A stretch of DNA of 13,252 nt from Bdellovibrio sp. GTDB taxonomy: Bacteria; Bdellovibrionota; Bdellovibrionia; Bdellovibrionales; Bdellovibrionaceae. The notes beneath the pieces are model-generated. The model saw nothing but the letters and a program-made list of their open reading frames with translations, made no database searches and was not told the origin of the DNA. Within the stretch, counting starts at the first letter, position 1. Each line of letters begins with the position of its first letter. Of the stretch, positions 5,324 to 12,957 are shown in pieces. The stretch spans positions 1-13,252 of the forward strand of contig JAHRXB010000191.1 in NCBI GenBank assembly GCA_019104905.1, in the 5' to 3' direction. The translations under genes were made by a program, and so were the position numbers.

Positions 5324-6075
5324 AGAATATCAGCGTGAAAACCTTTGCAGGATGTATGACGGTTTTGTTCTTGTTCACGGGCTGCGCTACGATGAACAAT
5401 CTTTTTGATTCTTTGACGGAGCCGCCTGCAAAAACGTCCTTAGAGAATATTAAGTCGGCACCCCGCTATTCAGACGGTCAAAACTTGGGAGTCCCAACAG
5501 ATCGCCAGTATAAACGCATGACTCGCAATCGCATGGAAGAAGAATCGGATGTGGGCAGCAATGCCGGTTCGACATGGGTGATGGAAGGCCAAGGGGCTTA
5601 CCTCTTTGCGCAAAATAAGATGCGTAAAGAAGGTGATCTTTTGAGTGTTAAGTTAGATGGCCCTGCGATGAAGCAAGTTGAAACCAAGGTGTCTGTGATT
5701 AAGAAGCTGCTCAAACAACTTGAAGAACAGCAGCAACAGCAAGAGTTGAACAACTCTTTGGCACAAAATGGAGAGGCGTCTCGAGCGCCAGCTTCGGAGC
5801 AGAAGAAGCCAGAGCCAGCCAAGAGCGAAGAAAAAGATTCAGAAGGATTGGCGGAAGTGCAGAATATCCCGACCCGTTTGGTGGAAAAGTTGGCGGACGG
5901 AAACTATCGTGTCAAAGGTCAGCAACCCTTTATGATTGGAAAACGCGAATACAAAGTTATTGTCACGGGCCTTATTCGTCCCGAAGATTTCAACGATCAA
6001 GGAATCTCCTCAGATAAACTTTTGGATCCTCAGTACGATGTCGTCAGCATCAGAAGGAATACACGCAATGAATAG
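5320..6075 (+). CDS. flgH: FlgH, flagellar L-ring lipoprotein
   Basis: Forms the outer-membrane L-ring bushing of the flagellum. A lipoprotein signal is present: a hydrophobic stretch ending LFTGC, with the lipidated Cys at residue 22. The family core is divergent but readable: GAYLFAQNKMRKEGDLLSVKL (92-112) and the C-terminal block TRLVEKLADGNYRVKG...YKVIVTGLIRPEDF...ISSDKLLDPQYDVVSIRRN (185-246), which corresponds to the usual NGNLVVEG / SGVVNP / VADARIEY segments. Between them, residues about 127-178 are a low-complexity linker with five consecutive Gln and many Lys, Glu, Pro and Ala. The start overlaps the flgA stop (ATGA) and the gene overlaps flgI by eight bases. Position between flgA and flgI supports the call even though similarity is spread thinly. 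Confidence 0.88.
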   Translation: MKNISVKTFAGCMTVLFLFTGCATMNNLFDSLTEPPAKTSLENIKSAPRYSDGQNLGVPTDRQYKRMTRNRMEEESDVGSNAGSTWVMEGQGAYLFAQNKMRKEGDLLSVKLDGPAMKQVETKVSVIKKLLKQLEEQQQQQELNNSLAQNGEASRAPASEQKKPEPAKSEEKDSEGLAEVQNIPTRLVEKLADGNYRVKGQQPFMIGKREYKVIVTGLIRPEDFNDQGISSDKLLDPQYDVVSIRRNTRNE

Positions 6076-7075
6076 ATTTTTTCAGATTCTCGTCATAGTT
6101 GCGCTTTTCATTTTAGGTTACTACGAAGGGGCCAATGCCGCTCGCTTGAAGGACATTGCCAGCATTCGCGGAGTTCGCGAAAATCAGCTGATCGGTTATG
6201 GTATCGTCGTAGGTCTTAAGGGAACCGGGGACGGGAAAAATGAATTCATGAGTAAAAGTGTCGTGCGAATGTTCGACAAGTTGGGCATGAAATTAGATTC
6301 TCCTGAGTTCTCAAGTAAAAATGTGGCGGCTGTAATTATCACGGGTACAATGCCCGCCTTCGGGAAGGCTGGAAACCCTATTGATATTACAGTCAGCGCG
6401 ATCGGAGACGCCTCTTCACTGGCCGGGGGAACTTTGCTACAAGCCCCTCTTCGCGCTGCGAATGAACAAGTGTATGCGGTGGCGCAAGGAAGTATCGTCA
6501 TTGGTGGCGATGGGAAAGATCAACACGGAACTTCGGGCCGCATTCCTAATGGTGCGATCATTGAACGTGATATGACAGCCGATTTTGCGACTCGTAAGAT
6601 GTACCGTCTGACACTGATCAATCCTGATTTCACGACGGCAGCACGCACAGTTCTTACGATTAACAAAGAACTGGGTGGGCACTATGCCTCGGCGAAAGAT
6701 GCGGGTACTATTGATATCATTACTCCGTTTGCTTACGAAAACAGAGGCGTTGAGCTTTTGGCCACGATTGAATCCATCGATATCAATCCGGATATGAAGG
6801 CTCGTGTGGTTGTGAATGAAAAAACGGGCACGATTGTAATTGGCGATAAAGTGAAAATTTCAAGAGTGGCGATCTCGCACGGAGCACTTTCTGTGAAAGT
6901 GGGAGATGGCAAAAAAGGTGGCGAAGAAAAAGTCGCTGTGCTCGAAAGTGGTGTCAGTGTTGGGGAACTCGTGCAAGCACTAAACAAGCTGGGCGTCTCG
7001 CCTAAGGACCTGATAACTATACTTCAGTCCATTAAATCAGCTGGAGCTTTGCACGGGGAACTCGAAGTATTATGA
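6068..7075 (+). CDS. flgI: FlgI, flagellar P-ring protein
   Basis: Builds the periplasmic P-ring around the distal rod. A longer in-frame ORF starts at 5936, but the ATG at 6068 is preceded by AAGGA (6054-6058) and opens a proper Sec signal peptide (MNRFFQILVIVALFILGYYEGANA), so 6068 is chosen: 335 residues. The mature N-terminus ARLKDIASIRGVRENQLIGYG and the following VVGLKGTGDG are signatures of FlgI, as are GTLLQAPL, the central FTTAARTVLTINKE, NEKTGTIVIG, and the ending LNKLGVSPKDLITILQSIKSAGALHGELEVL. It is the last protein gene of the tight flgF-flgI operon. The stop lies in an ATGA (7072-7075), but the frame that opens there is not convincing as a gene. Confidence 0.97.
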   Translation: MNRFFQILVIVALFILGYYEGANAARLKDIASIRGVRENQLIGYGIVVGLKGTGDGKNEFMSKSVVRMFDKLGMKLDSPEFSSKNVAAVIITGTMPAFGKAGNPIDITVSAIGDASSLAGGTLLQAPLRAANEQVYAVAQGSIVIGGDGKDQHGTSGRIPNGAIIERDMTADFATRKMYRLTLINPDFTTAARTVLTINKELGGHYASAKDAGTIDIITPFAYENRGVELLATIESIDINPDMKARVVVNEKTGTIVIGDKVKISRVAISHGALSVKVGDGKKGGEEKVAVLESGVSVGELVQALNKLGVSPKDLITILQSIKSAGALHGELEVL

Positions 7076-7122
7076 AATTTGTGTTTCAAAATGACACAGC
7101 ATTTAATAGAATTGTAAATATA

Positions 7123-7327
7123 GTTTCAGACACATGGATGTGTTTGGAACGCGGGGAGGGTGAGGAAGAGATCGCGAACCATGGAAGGTCAAGAGTCAAA
7201 AGTTTCTCGCAGGAAACAGGAGCAATAGGTCAGCAGGCACCAAGGATTGGTGAACACGAGCCGAAGCTACACTCTAAGAGTCAAGTGCAGGATGCACATG
7301 ATTCTCCGACTCAACTCCCCTTTTTTT
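7123..7327 (+). ncRNA. Candidate CsrB/RsmZ-like CsrA-binding RNA (or structured flgI 3' UTR)
   Basis: Within about 205 bases there are nine GGA triplets, eight outside stems. Three sit at the tip of perfect or near-perfect hairpins: arms 7123-7135/7138-7150 (13 pairs, tip ACATGGATGT, very close to the CsrA SELEX consensus), arms CACCAA/TTGGTG at 7238-7243/7247-7252, and GTGCA/TGCAC at 7285-7289/7293-7297, each of the last two with a bare GGA loop. Further GGAs at 7155, 7164, 7183, 7212 and 7219 lie between them. The first hairpin has two G-U pairs that would be A-C mismatches on the other strand, favouring a + strand RNA. GGGGAG (7153-7158) can pair with CTCCCC (7315-7320), just before seven T's (7321-7327). 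Hairpins with exposed GGA are the defining mark of CsrA/RsmA-sequestering RNAs, and csrA and fliW are in this window. No strong promoter is visible; ATGACA (7091-7096) and TATAGT (7119-7124) are too far apart. It may be cut from the flgI transcript. An alternative is ordinary spacer with chance hairpins. Confidence 0.45.
7278..7327 (+). terminator. Possible intrinsic terminator at the end of the flgF-flgI transcript or RNA candidate
   Basis: GAGTC (7278-7282) can pair with GACTC (7308-7312), enclosing the GTGCA-GGA-TGCAC hairpin, and CTCCCC (7315-7320) is followed directly by seven T's (7321-7327). The CTCCCC can pair over a long distance with GGGGAG at 7153-7158. The T-tract is good, but no compact GC-rich hairpin touches it, so termination strength is uncertain. 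Confidence 0.35.
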
Positions 7328-7348
7328 CTCTTCCACTAAAATTTGCTG

Positions 7349-7524
7349 CTTGTGAGGAAGGTGGGACTCTGCAAAGAGTGGCCGCTTCGGACAGTCCTCG
7401 CGCGGCGAAGTTCTTTTTGGCATCGGTGGGTGCTAGTCTTTTTTCTTCTGAGTTCTATTGCCGATCTTTCTTGGCGCTGCGGAACTTGCGGCAACTCTTT
7501 GCAGAGTCCCACCTTCCTCACAAG
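7349..7524. repeat. Long inverted repeat (31-base perfect arms, 37 with one mismatch)
   Basis: Positions 7349-7379 and 7494-7524 are exact reverse complements over 31 bases. One mismatch (7380 versus 7493) is followed by five more pairs (7381-7385 with 7488-7492), leaving about 102 bases in the centre. Weaker complementarity continues outward (around 7335-7348 against 7525-7537) and inward. As RNA this would be a very stable hairpin; as DNA it could extrude or be the ends of a small non-coding element (MITE-like). I see no convincing target-site duplication and no transposase. It lies between the T-tract after flgI and the ribosome site of the flgJ-like gene, so it is not inside a known protein gene. 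Confidence 0.85.
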
Positions 7525-7592
7525 ACAAAGTTTGTGAGAGAAGCAAAGGGTAATTTTGCGGCGAACGCCCAAATTTCTTTCGGAGGCTGTTC

Positions 7593-8339
7593 ATGAGTGA
7601 CATGAGTGGAGCCTCTGGAAATTCAGGAAATTTTAAAGCCTTTGATTCGAAGTTTATGGGGCGGCCAGTTCAGAAATCTCCGGAGCAGAAGTTGCGGGAT
7701 GTTTCTGATATGTATGAGAAACATTTTTTGCGCGAGATGATGAAGGCGATGCGTTCCACCGTGCATGAGGGTGGTTTCGTTCAGTCGAATCAGGCTGAGA
7801 AAATTTTTAAAGAGCAGTTGGATGATCACTACGTCGAGAAGTGGGGAGAGCGTGGAGGGATCGGCTTGTCCGATATGATCTACAAACAACTCATGGATAA
7901 GTTTGGCGTGATGATGGGAATCAAAGCGCCGGTTGCCAAGCCTCAAGGTCCGTTGCCCTTTGATGCAAAAAGTGAGTACCGAGCGCAACCCTTTCAGCAC
8001 CCTGGAAAAAAACAAGCCGTGTCTTATCGCATTGACGTAAATCGTGCGGAAACGCCGGGTGAGTCGCAGGCAAATAAAGAGCCTGAAGCCGTGAAAGCCC
8101 CGTGGGATGGGGTTTTGCTGGGGAAAAGAGCTTTGGTGGATAACCAGACAATGCTGGAGATAGAGCACGACAATGGTCTTAAAAGCCAGATGGTTTTTAA
8201 GGGGGGAGTGTCTAAAGTTTCGACAGGGCAAAAACTGCAAGCTGGCGACACCCTTGGGTTTTTAAGTCCAGAGGCAAAATCACTCTATTGGACTGTCGAG
8301 CCAGAGGCGGAACCTGGACCAGAAACTGTCTCAGAATGA
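7593..8339 (+). CDS. flgJ: FlgJ-like rod-binding protein with degenerate LytM/M23 C-terminal domain
   Basis: Residues about 32-105 are the rod-binding (FlgJ N-terminal) domain: LRDVSDMYEKHFLREMMKAM, NQAEKIFKEQLDDHY, GGIGLSDMIYKQL. This part acts as the rod cap that helps FlgB/C/F/G polymerise in the periplasm. In enterobacterial FlgJ the rest is a GH73 glucosaminidase; here that is absent. After a Pro/Lys-rich linker (106-167), residues about 168-236 (PWDGVLLGKRALVDNQTMLEIEHDNGL, VSKVSTGQKLQAGDTLGFLS, LYWTVEPE) follow the pattern of an M23/LytM peptidase fold. The metal ligands are missing: the YAHL position reads MVFKG and the HLHFE position reads SLYWTVE, so it is probably inactive and may only bind. 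GGAGG at 7582-7586 fixes the ATG at 7593. The rod-binding call is strong; the tail assignment is inference from pattern. Confidence 0.85.
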   Translation: MSDMSGASGNSGNFKAFDSKFMGRPVQKSPEQKLRDVSDMYEKHFLREMMKAMRSTVHEGGFVQSNQAEKIFKEQLDDHYVEKWGERGGIGLSDMIYKQLMDKFGVMMGIKAPVAKPQGPLPFDAKSEYRAQPFQHPGKKQAVSYRIDVNRAETPGESQANKEPEAVKAPWDGVLLGKRALVDNQTMLEIEHDNGLKSQMVFKGGVSKVSTGQKLQAGDTLGFLSPEAKSLYWTVEPEAEPGPETVSE

Positions 8340-12429: not shown

Positions 12430-12957
12430 ATGATCATTTCGACATCACGCTTCGGCCAAGTTGAGCTGAAACAAGAAGATGTTCTGACTTTCCCTGAAGG
12501 TCTTTTGGGCTTTGCGGATTTACGTAAGTTTGCTCTTCTCGATGATCCAAATGATGAGATCTTTGCTTGGTTGCAAAGCTGCGAAGCCCCTCAAATTGCC
12601 TTCCCTGTTCTTGAGCCAGAGCTTTTTGCTCCTCAGTACAAAGCGACTTTAACTAAAGGTGACCTAGAGGCCTTGAAGCTGACAGCGCAAGACAAAGCTC
12701 GCTATTTCTCTATCGTGACTATTCCTGATGATCCAACTCAAATGACGGCGAACCTAAAGGCTCCTGTTGTTGTGAATGTGGCAGAGAAAATGGCACGTCA
12801 GTGTGTTCTTCAGGACAATAACTTGGCTATTCGTGAGCCTATCTTCGCGAAGCTTCAGCAGCGTGTGGTTCAGAACCCATCTGTGGCGATTAAAAATCAA
12901 TCTTCAGGGATTGATGTTGCTACGAAGCTGACTGTCGTTAAGGATGCTGAGCTTTAA
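12430..12957 (+). CDS. fliW: FliW, flagellar assembly factor and CsrA antagonist
   Basis: FliW binds flagellin and CsrA in turn; when flagellin is secreted, free FliW inactivates CsrA and flagellin translation rises (known from Bacillus and Campylobacter). Family marks: TSRFGQVELKQEDVLTFPEGLLGFADLRKFALLDD (5-39), FAWLQSCEAPQIAFPVLEP (45-63), IVTIPDD (94-100), TANLKAPVVVNVAEKMARQCVL (104-125) and IREPIF (132-137). The 175 residues are somewhat longer than many FliW (about 150), with a polar tail after 145. The ribosome site GGAGGA (12421-12426) is close to the ATG. An out-of-frame ATG at 12426 lies between and could form a very short competing start. A perfect 20-base palindrome spans the stop codon. 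Confidence 0.96.
   Translation: MIISTSRFGQVELKQEDVLTFPEGLLGFADLRKFALLDDPNDEIFAWLQSCEAPQIAFPVLEPELFAPQYKATLTKGDLEALKLTAQDKARYFSIVTIPDDPTQMTANLKAPVVVNVAEKMARQCVLQDNNLAIREPIFAKLQQRVVQNPSVAIKNQSSGIDVATKLTVVKDAEL

Follow-up and report, generated by a model that had tools for sequence, protein, structure and literature searches.

A short stretch between two flagellar genes of a Bdellovibrio sp. contig is rich in hairpins with GGA triplets at their tips, and the question is whether it encodes an RNA and what such an RNA would do. The window, i.e. the whole stretch of DNA analysed, is 13,252 nucleotides long; the intergenic stretch concerned, 7123-7327 on the + strand, lies in it between flgI and a flgJ-like gene. 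The best explanation is a small RNA of ~207 nt, transcribed from its own promoter, which would sequester the regulator CsrA in the manner of CsrB and RsmZ, and this reading is considered quite probable.

Components of the locus

The features of the locus are listed below. The GGA counts refer to alignment A2, which is described with the fold.

6068-7075, + strand: upstream neighbour, taken to be flgI from the open reading frame listing, its sequence and synteny
7082-7097, + strand: imperfect palindrome TGTTTC-N4/5-GANAC, overlapping the -35 region and starting 25 nt upstream of the -10-like hexamer
7107-7112, + strand: -10-like hexamer TAGAAT (TANANT in relatives), from the alignment and a promoter scan
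~7118 to ~7324, + strand: structured RNA of ~207 nt, its ends estimated by mapping the coordinates of APsRNA1 of B. bacteriovorus HD100
7123-7150, + strand: hairpin 1, loop GGA at 7136, tip ACATGGATGT; strong covariation, GGA in 96/99
7153-7158, + strand: outer closing helix, 5' strand GGGGAG, pairing with 7315-7320
7161-7170, + strand: inner closing helix, 5' strand TGAGNNAGAG, pairing with 7304-7313
7178-7189, + strand: hairpin 2, ACC-ATGGAA-GGT, loop GGA at 7183; stem nearly invariant, GGA in 97/100
7202-7217, + strand: hairpin 3, GTTTC-TCGCAG-GAAAC, GCAGGA at the border of loop and stem, GGA at 7212; GGA in 97/100
7238-7252, + strand: hairpin 4, CACCAA-GGA-TTGGTG, GGA at 7244; strong covariation, GGA in 85/94
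7285-7297, + strand: hairpin 5, GTGCA-GGA-TGCAC, GGA at 7290; strong covariation, GGA in 98/99
7304-7313, + strand: inner closing helix, 3' strand CTCCGACTCA, pairing with 7161-7170
7315-7320, + strand: outer closing helix, 3' strand CTCCCC, pairing with 7153-7158
7321-7327, + strand: T run, likely the tail of an intrinsic terminator; the HD100 transcript end falls inside it
7593-8339, + strand: downstream neighbour, presumably flgJ; a flgJ match lies on the same strand 3' of the RNA in 103/103 same-contig cases
12021-12248, + strand: csrA, the presumed target of the RNA, encoding 75 aa with L4, R6, R44 and N55 present
12430-12957, + strand: fliW, encoding a protein antagonist of CsrA (PF02623, E 1.3e-38)

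The gap between the T run and flgJ also contains a long inverted repeat (7348-7386 and 7487-7526) with arms of 37 bases that are 97% alike in their best stretch. Between the arms lies sequence that is matched at 75% by another site of this genome (C131), which suggests a small repeat or a mobile remnant.

The transcript and its promoter

In B. bacteriovorus HD100 the same locus and strand give rise to APsRNA1, a transcript of 207 nt with a mapped start (499,375-499,581, + strand; Karunker et al. 2013, PMC3627812). Its level is 50,451 RPKM in the attack phase and 3,181 RPKM in the growth phase, i.e. it is 16-fold up in attack. In that report APsRNA1 carries no FliA promoter mark and is assigned no function, base-pairing is suggested for the attack-phase sRNAs in general, and no significant homology of these sRNAs is reported outside B. 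bacteriovorus. The RNA of the window is matched in genome G006 at 499,376-499,588. The c-di-GMP-I riboswitch of G006 lies inside the published merRNA interval, which indicates that the two coordinate frames agree. Judged by sequence and position, the RNA of the window is the orthologue of APsRNA1. According to the preliminary description, no CsrB-like RNA is known in bacteria of this type. This agrees with the open-licence PubMed Central literature on Bdellovibrio, in which no paper linking APsRNA1 to CsrA was found (the sRNA described in PMC3818213 is a different one), but the transcript itself was already known.

The HD100 coordinates, together with a promoter match, point to a separate transcript with its own start and end; the published measurement is that of HD100. 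The start predicted from APsRNA1 is about 6 nt downstream of the hexamer TAGAAT. The HD100 counterpart of this hexamer, TACAAT, ends six bases ahead of the published start, and the published transcript end maps to the T run. A promoter scan found a sigma70-like element, TTCAAA-16-TAGAAT at 7085-7112, which is a consensus match only and in which TTCAAA (7085-7090) is a weak -35-like hexamer; the scan also gave one match on the other strand (0.6 expected). The -10-like hexamer is kept in the family. The script that anchored the rows on it yielded no candidate for 6 of 100 rows and settled on a different hexamer for some others, so that the promoter claim is limited to family f1 and, elsewhere, to the rows inspected. 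In genome G028 the flgI stop and the conserved upstream block are 160 nt apart. This separation, the mapped start in HD100 and the kept hexamer all argue against the 3'-UTR-derived sponge of the preliminary description, which had seen no clear promoter where the HD100 start predicts one and where the consensus match is found.

The palindrome that overlaps the -35 region is present in the alignment in family f1 and in some genomes of other families. A script counting TGTTT/TTTC at the palindrome spacing found it in 21 of 46 f1 loci and 9 of 48 others, the f1 figure being an undercount because another -10 was chosen in some rows, including that of the window. The palindrome is possibly an operator or activator site for a regulator of the RNA. 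In Gammaproteobacteria such RNAs are associated with the GacA/UvrY box, TGTAAG-N6-CTTACA. With up to three mismatches, this box had one match in the window, at 5427, where 3.8 were expected. The palindrome near the -35 region is a different one.

At the other end, the outer closing helix is directly adjoined by the seven T's, as had been described. A terminator scan that allowed loops of 3-8 only did not report the T run 7321-7327.

Fold and covariation

The RNA folds into a 5' hairpin followed by a domain that a long helix closes; five hairpins in all carry a GGA. The minimum free energy (MFE) of 7123-7340 is -69.1 kcal/mol compared to -58.9 +/- 4.5 for shuffles (z -2.29). The three hairpins named in the preliminary description all exist, with 12 pairs rather than 13 in stem 1 of the MFE fold, and two more conserved GGA hairpins (2 and 3) had been missed.

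Alignment A1, which was not fitted to the structure, was made with MAFFT from 33 sequences of one family (G006 was omitted, its RNA being identical to that of G002). RNAalifold predicted 35 pairs on A1, 17 of which have compensatory double changes. The hand-set structure has a covariation score of 0.263 on this alignment; 500 shuffles gave 0.117 +/- 0.007 and slid partners no more than 0.075. Alignment A2 was obtained by fitting 100 loci to model R2. Of these, 68 had been found by model R1 and 6 are from genus g3; the remaining 26 belong to the initial set of 34 family loci, from which eight near relatives had been removed. Double changes occur in 41 of the 47 pairs of A2 (659 cells) and its score is 0.416 versus 0.150, a value to be read as that of an alignment fitted to a covariance model. 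Alignment A3, also fitted, retains 83 of the 100 loci after 17 were dropped for long insertions, cut ends or duplication.

Significance was assessed with a tree-based null of our own design (not R-scape), in which substitutions were re-dealt among columns on a FastTree tree. Significant pairs numbered 17 of 47 in the fitted A3, 9 of 47 when the same 83 sequences were aligned with MAFFT and not fitted, and 10 of 47 in A1. When all columns were compared against all, the pairs above threshold were without exception within the structure (11/11, 3/3 and 2/2, respectively). The covariation check proposed earlier found stems that covary, and the significant pairs are confined to hairpins 1, 4 and 5. 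Each of the 12 pairs of hairpin 1 has double changes in some row of A2.

For hairpins 2 and 3 and for the closing helices, the support comes from pairing and conservation. Hairpins 2 and 3 barely vary, so that covariation is no test of them. The stem of hairpin 2 is almost invariant, with little covariation, and is paired in 95.1% of cells of the unfitted alignment of 83; hairpin 3 is paired in 90.5% of cells there and in 94.4% in A2, with few double changes. The outer closing helix is paired in 82.5% and the inner one in 83.6% of cells of the unfitted alignment (84.8% in A2 for the inner helix, whose three central pairs are mostly non-canonical in the family alignment). Model R2, which includes the closing helix, scores higher than R1 in 38 of the 52 loci outside the family and lower in 14, with a mean of +5.0 bits; these model scores favour the closing helix as support rather than proof. 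A pairing of 7162-7167 with 7205-7210, suggested by RNAalifold, was rejected, as it is formed in 53.3% of cells compared to 83.6% for the inner closing helix in the same unfitted alignment; the two foldings might alternate. Two further helices, each in competition with the inner closing helix, were kept out of the model, namely 7193-7197/7308-7312 of the window's MFE fold (73.7% of cells paired, unfitted alignment of 83) and an extension of hairpin 5, 7277-7283/7299-7305 (55.8%).

The GGA motifs

The count of nine GGA triplets in 7123-7327 given in the preliminary description is right, but the enrichment read from it is weak. At least nine are present in 146 of 2000 dinucleotide shuffles (mean 6.1), and nine are reached by about 1% of the 205-base windows of the + strand, 7123-7327 itself included. 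The HD100 orthologue has 7 GGA in 207 nt, with 4.7 expected. The number of GGAs alone is weak evidence, and the real signal is in their position and conservation. In MFE folds, 3.73 GGAs per RNA are found on hairpin tips in 100 homologues, compared to 0.56 in shuffles, and three or more such tips occur in 92 of the 100 homologues and in 30 of 2000 shuffles. The window's own RNA has five. The GGAs of the five hairpins are conserved in A2 as listed above, the closing-strand GGA is kept in 71/100, and those at 7219, 7164 and 7146 are poorly kept (33/94, 22/100 and 12/96). Several conserved GGAs in hairpin loops, a mark of CsrA-sequestering sRNAs, are present.

The stem sequences of hairpins 1, 4 and 5 vary, and the GGA with its immediate flanks is kept. 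Changing stems with constant tips are the pattern that a protein reading GGA in a hairpin loop would impose. The commonest tip of hairpin 1, ACATGGATGT (41 of 99), agrees in 9 of 10 positions with the SELEX core within RUACARGGAUGU, and the tip of hairpin 5 is GCAGGATGC or ACAGGATGT in 79 of 99 rows of A2. The flanks of both motifs resemble the SELEX site and the CsrB repeat. According to a 2020 review (PMC7652899), RUACARGGAUGU is the CsrA SELEX consensus, with the GGA in a hairpin loop in most ligands and mostly four or fewer contiguous pairs, and the CsrB repeats are CAGGA(U/A/C)G.

Another attack-phase sRNA of HD100, APsRNA4 (562,984-563,081), has 4 GGA in 98 nt, with 1.6 expected.

No Rfam family matches the RNA of the window at the gathering score; at E up to 10 there are only two unrelated matches, both below their own gathering scores. 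The Rfam covariance models of CsrB, CsrC and RsmX/Y/Z do not match it. The earlier assignment to the CsrB/RsmZ type stands as the best explanation, having passed the comparative test, but not as membership of the CsrB/RsmZ Rfam families.

Distribution among genomes

Model R1, built from the 33 sequences of one family only, has matches in 102 of the order's 140 genomes, including 52 outside the family. Model R3 derives from 83 sequences of the order, so that its matches there are partly circular (108 of 140 genomes); it matches 111 of 143 genomes of the class and 111 of 368 of the phylum. The three class genomes outside the order, which were not used in R3, all match. Outside the class, none of the other 225 genomes of the phylum has an R3 match with strict filters and E up to 0.001; the visible divergent copies in G069 and G071 escape R3, so that the RNA may have been missed elsewhere too.

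Each positive genome has one match. In all 103 genomes in which a single contig carries both the RNA and flgJ, the two share a strand and the RNA is 5' of flgJ, at a distance of 18-552 nt (median 89) from the flgJ match; in two genomes (G003 and G088) they are on different contigs. A flgJ match is found in 105 of 108 RNA-positive and 8 of 32 RNA-negative genomes, and those 8 all belong to genus g3. The impression given by R1 that genus g3 is wholly devoid of the RNA was wrong in part. A divergent copy is present in 6 of 10 flgI-flgJ gaps, and in the other four flgI directly adjoins flgJ (G079, with too short a sequence, G073 and G078 are outside this count of 10). These four g3 genomes (L106, L109, L110 and L115) have no R3 match and still have csrA and fliW. 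They are likely natural losses, although, given the copies in G069 and G071 that R3 misses, a copy may lie elsewhere in them.

CsrA and FliW

The genes csrA and fliW are on the same strand as the RNA, about 5 kb downstream, as had been stated. A csrA match is found in 131 of 140 genomes, including 102 of 102 good ones, and a fliW match in 117 of 140. Among the 108 RNA-bearing genomes, 103 have csrA and 100 have both genes; the other eight have no fliW match, and five of these have no csrA match either. Some flgJ, RNA and fliW negatives of the co-occurrence table were read from absence in match lists (for fliW, in G129, G130 and G134).

The RNA-contact residues L4, R6 and R44 are intact in the CsrA of the window, to which this statement is restricted, and N55 is located in its extended C-terminus. 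L4 and R44 are named as RNA contacts in PMC7652899, and N55 is proposed to contact FliW in PMC13407953. According to the latter, CsrA is antagonized by sRNA principally in Gammaproteobacteria and by FliW elsewhere. FliW and the CsrB/C sRNAs are described as anti-correlated (PMC4894983), and so are FliW and BarA-UvrY (PMC7652899). According to the 2020 review, it has yet to be established for any species whether FliW and sRNAs jointly control CsrA (PMC7652899). The presence of the RNA, csrA and fliW together in 100 of 108 genomes makes such joint control testable.

Small genomes of family f4, 1.2-2.0 Mb in size (G101, G102, G108-G110, G124, G125, G127-G130) retain a csrA match and have no fliW, flgJ or RNA match, some of these negatives being read from match-list absence. 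In G121 both csrA and fliW are matched twice (C197, C207), and an additional fliW lies on a different contig of G020 (C2).

Function of the RNA

From the comparative evidence we infer CsrA binding and titration, as well as the targets and the role of the RNA in the predatory cycle. Transcription would start at the RNA's own sigma70-like promoter just 3' of flgI and would end at the helix and U-run before flgJ. CsrA dimers would bind pairs of GGA hairpins and would be withdrawn from mRNAs by competitive sequestration, as with CsrB and RsmZ. The RNA probably soaks up CsrA in hunting cells: in the attack phase, its abundance would keep CsrA inactive in the motile, non-growing cell, and in the growth phase, with 16-fold less RNA, freed CsrA would repress flagellar and attack mRNAs. 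FliW would be a second, allosteric input on the same CsrA. That the rise and fall of the RNA helps predators to change from motile attack to growth within prey and back is an even bet.

The conserved structure and loop GGAs, the lack of codon constraint, the linkage to flgJ and the co-occurrence with csrA and fliW were established here, and the transcript, its start and its attack-phase bias by the published work on HD100. In favour of CsrA sequestration count the covariation, the kept hairpin GGAs, the consensus-like tip of hairpin 1, the presence of csrA with its RNA contacts, the expression and mapped start in HD100 and the single match per genome. Several properties count against it: there is little variation in hairpins 2 and 3, and hairpin 3 has its GGA at the border of loop and stem; the HD100 RNA has 7 GGA only; hairpin 1 has 12 pairs, compared to the four or fewer contiguous pairs of most SELEX ligands; and the gammaproteobacterial GacA/UvrY box is absent. 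The RNA is also missing from 4 of 10 g3 gaps in genomes that keep csrA and fliW, which indicates that CsrA can do without it.

The main rival is cis attenuation of flgJ, because the place of the RNA is so constant. The RNA and its terminator would be part of a flgI-flgJ operon, and CsrA or another GGA-binding factor would set the read-through into flgJ and beyond. The invariable position before flgJ (103 of 103 same-contig cases) also suits a cis role, and so does a closing helix that abuts a U-run. However, the HD100 report describes a discrete transcript with its own start that is abundant in the attack phase (PMC3627812), the upstream block persists far from the flgI stop in G028, and four g3 genomes have flgI directly beside flgJ with the RNA absent. 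Attenuation as the explanation of the locus is unlikely on balance, and cis and trans roles can coexist.

Slightly less probable still is a structured sRNA whose GGA hairpins serve another use, such as pairing with Shine-Dalgarno sequences of mRNAs or binding a different protein. It would suit the general suggestion of base-pairing by the HD100 transcriptome authors (PMC3627812). The stems of hairpins 1, 4 and 5 change while GGA and flanks stay, and csrA is nearly universal in the genomes examined, both of which argue against this reading.

Finally, a frame of 174 codons, 7072-7596, overlaps both flgI and flgJ by ATGA; a tblastn search with it matched 34 of 59 relatives. Read from the flgI overlap, the frame stays open for 84 codons or more in 33 of 34 f1 genomes, and an open + frame runs through the RNA in 35 of 42 f1 loci outside g3. 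Relatives keep the hairpins and loop GGAs, whereas codon constraint was not found in the frame: the three codon positions vary to a similar extent (0.128, 0.162 and 0.132 for the first, second and third), and the pooled pN/pS over 11 Bdellovibrio genomes is 1.10. The length and C-terminal part of the frame vary between genomes. In 43 of 100 homologues the RNA is not spanned by any open + frame (7/42 in f1 outside g3, 5/6 in g3 and 31/52 in other families). The codon-position, pN/pS and open-frame data argue against 7072-7596 as a protein gene; this reading was rejected, and that the frame is the functional unit is extremely improbable.

Comparison with known systems

A CsrA-sequestering RNA at this locus would resemble CsrB/CsrC and RsmX/Y/Z of Gammaproteobacteria in being a discrete sRNA with several hairpin-loop GGAs that match the CsrA consensus, in occurring in genomes with csrA and in being high in a non-growing phase. 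Unlike them, the APsRNA1-type RNA has no Rfam match and no GacA/UvrY box, has five fixed hairpins and a long closing helix running into a U-run, and lies inside a flagellar cluster beside fliW. In Campylobacter jejuni, RNA and FliW likewise tie CsrA to flagellar genes, and canonical sRNAs are reported absent (PMC4894983). The RNA there is the flaA mRNA leader with two GGA stem-loops, whereas a separate RNA with five is found here. The merRNA of HD100 is another abundant, attack-phase-specific RNA of the same organism, proposed to be a sponge for c-di-GMP, but it carries a riboswitch for a small molecule and lies at a different locus (PMC3627812). To APsRNA1, published as an attack-phase sRNA, the present analysis adds the structure, the class-wide distribution and the reading as a CsrA sponge, by which an abundant orphan transcript of a model predator gains a testable function.
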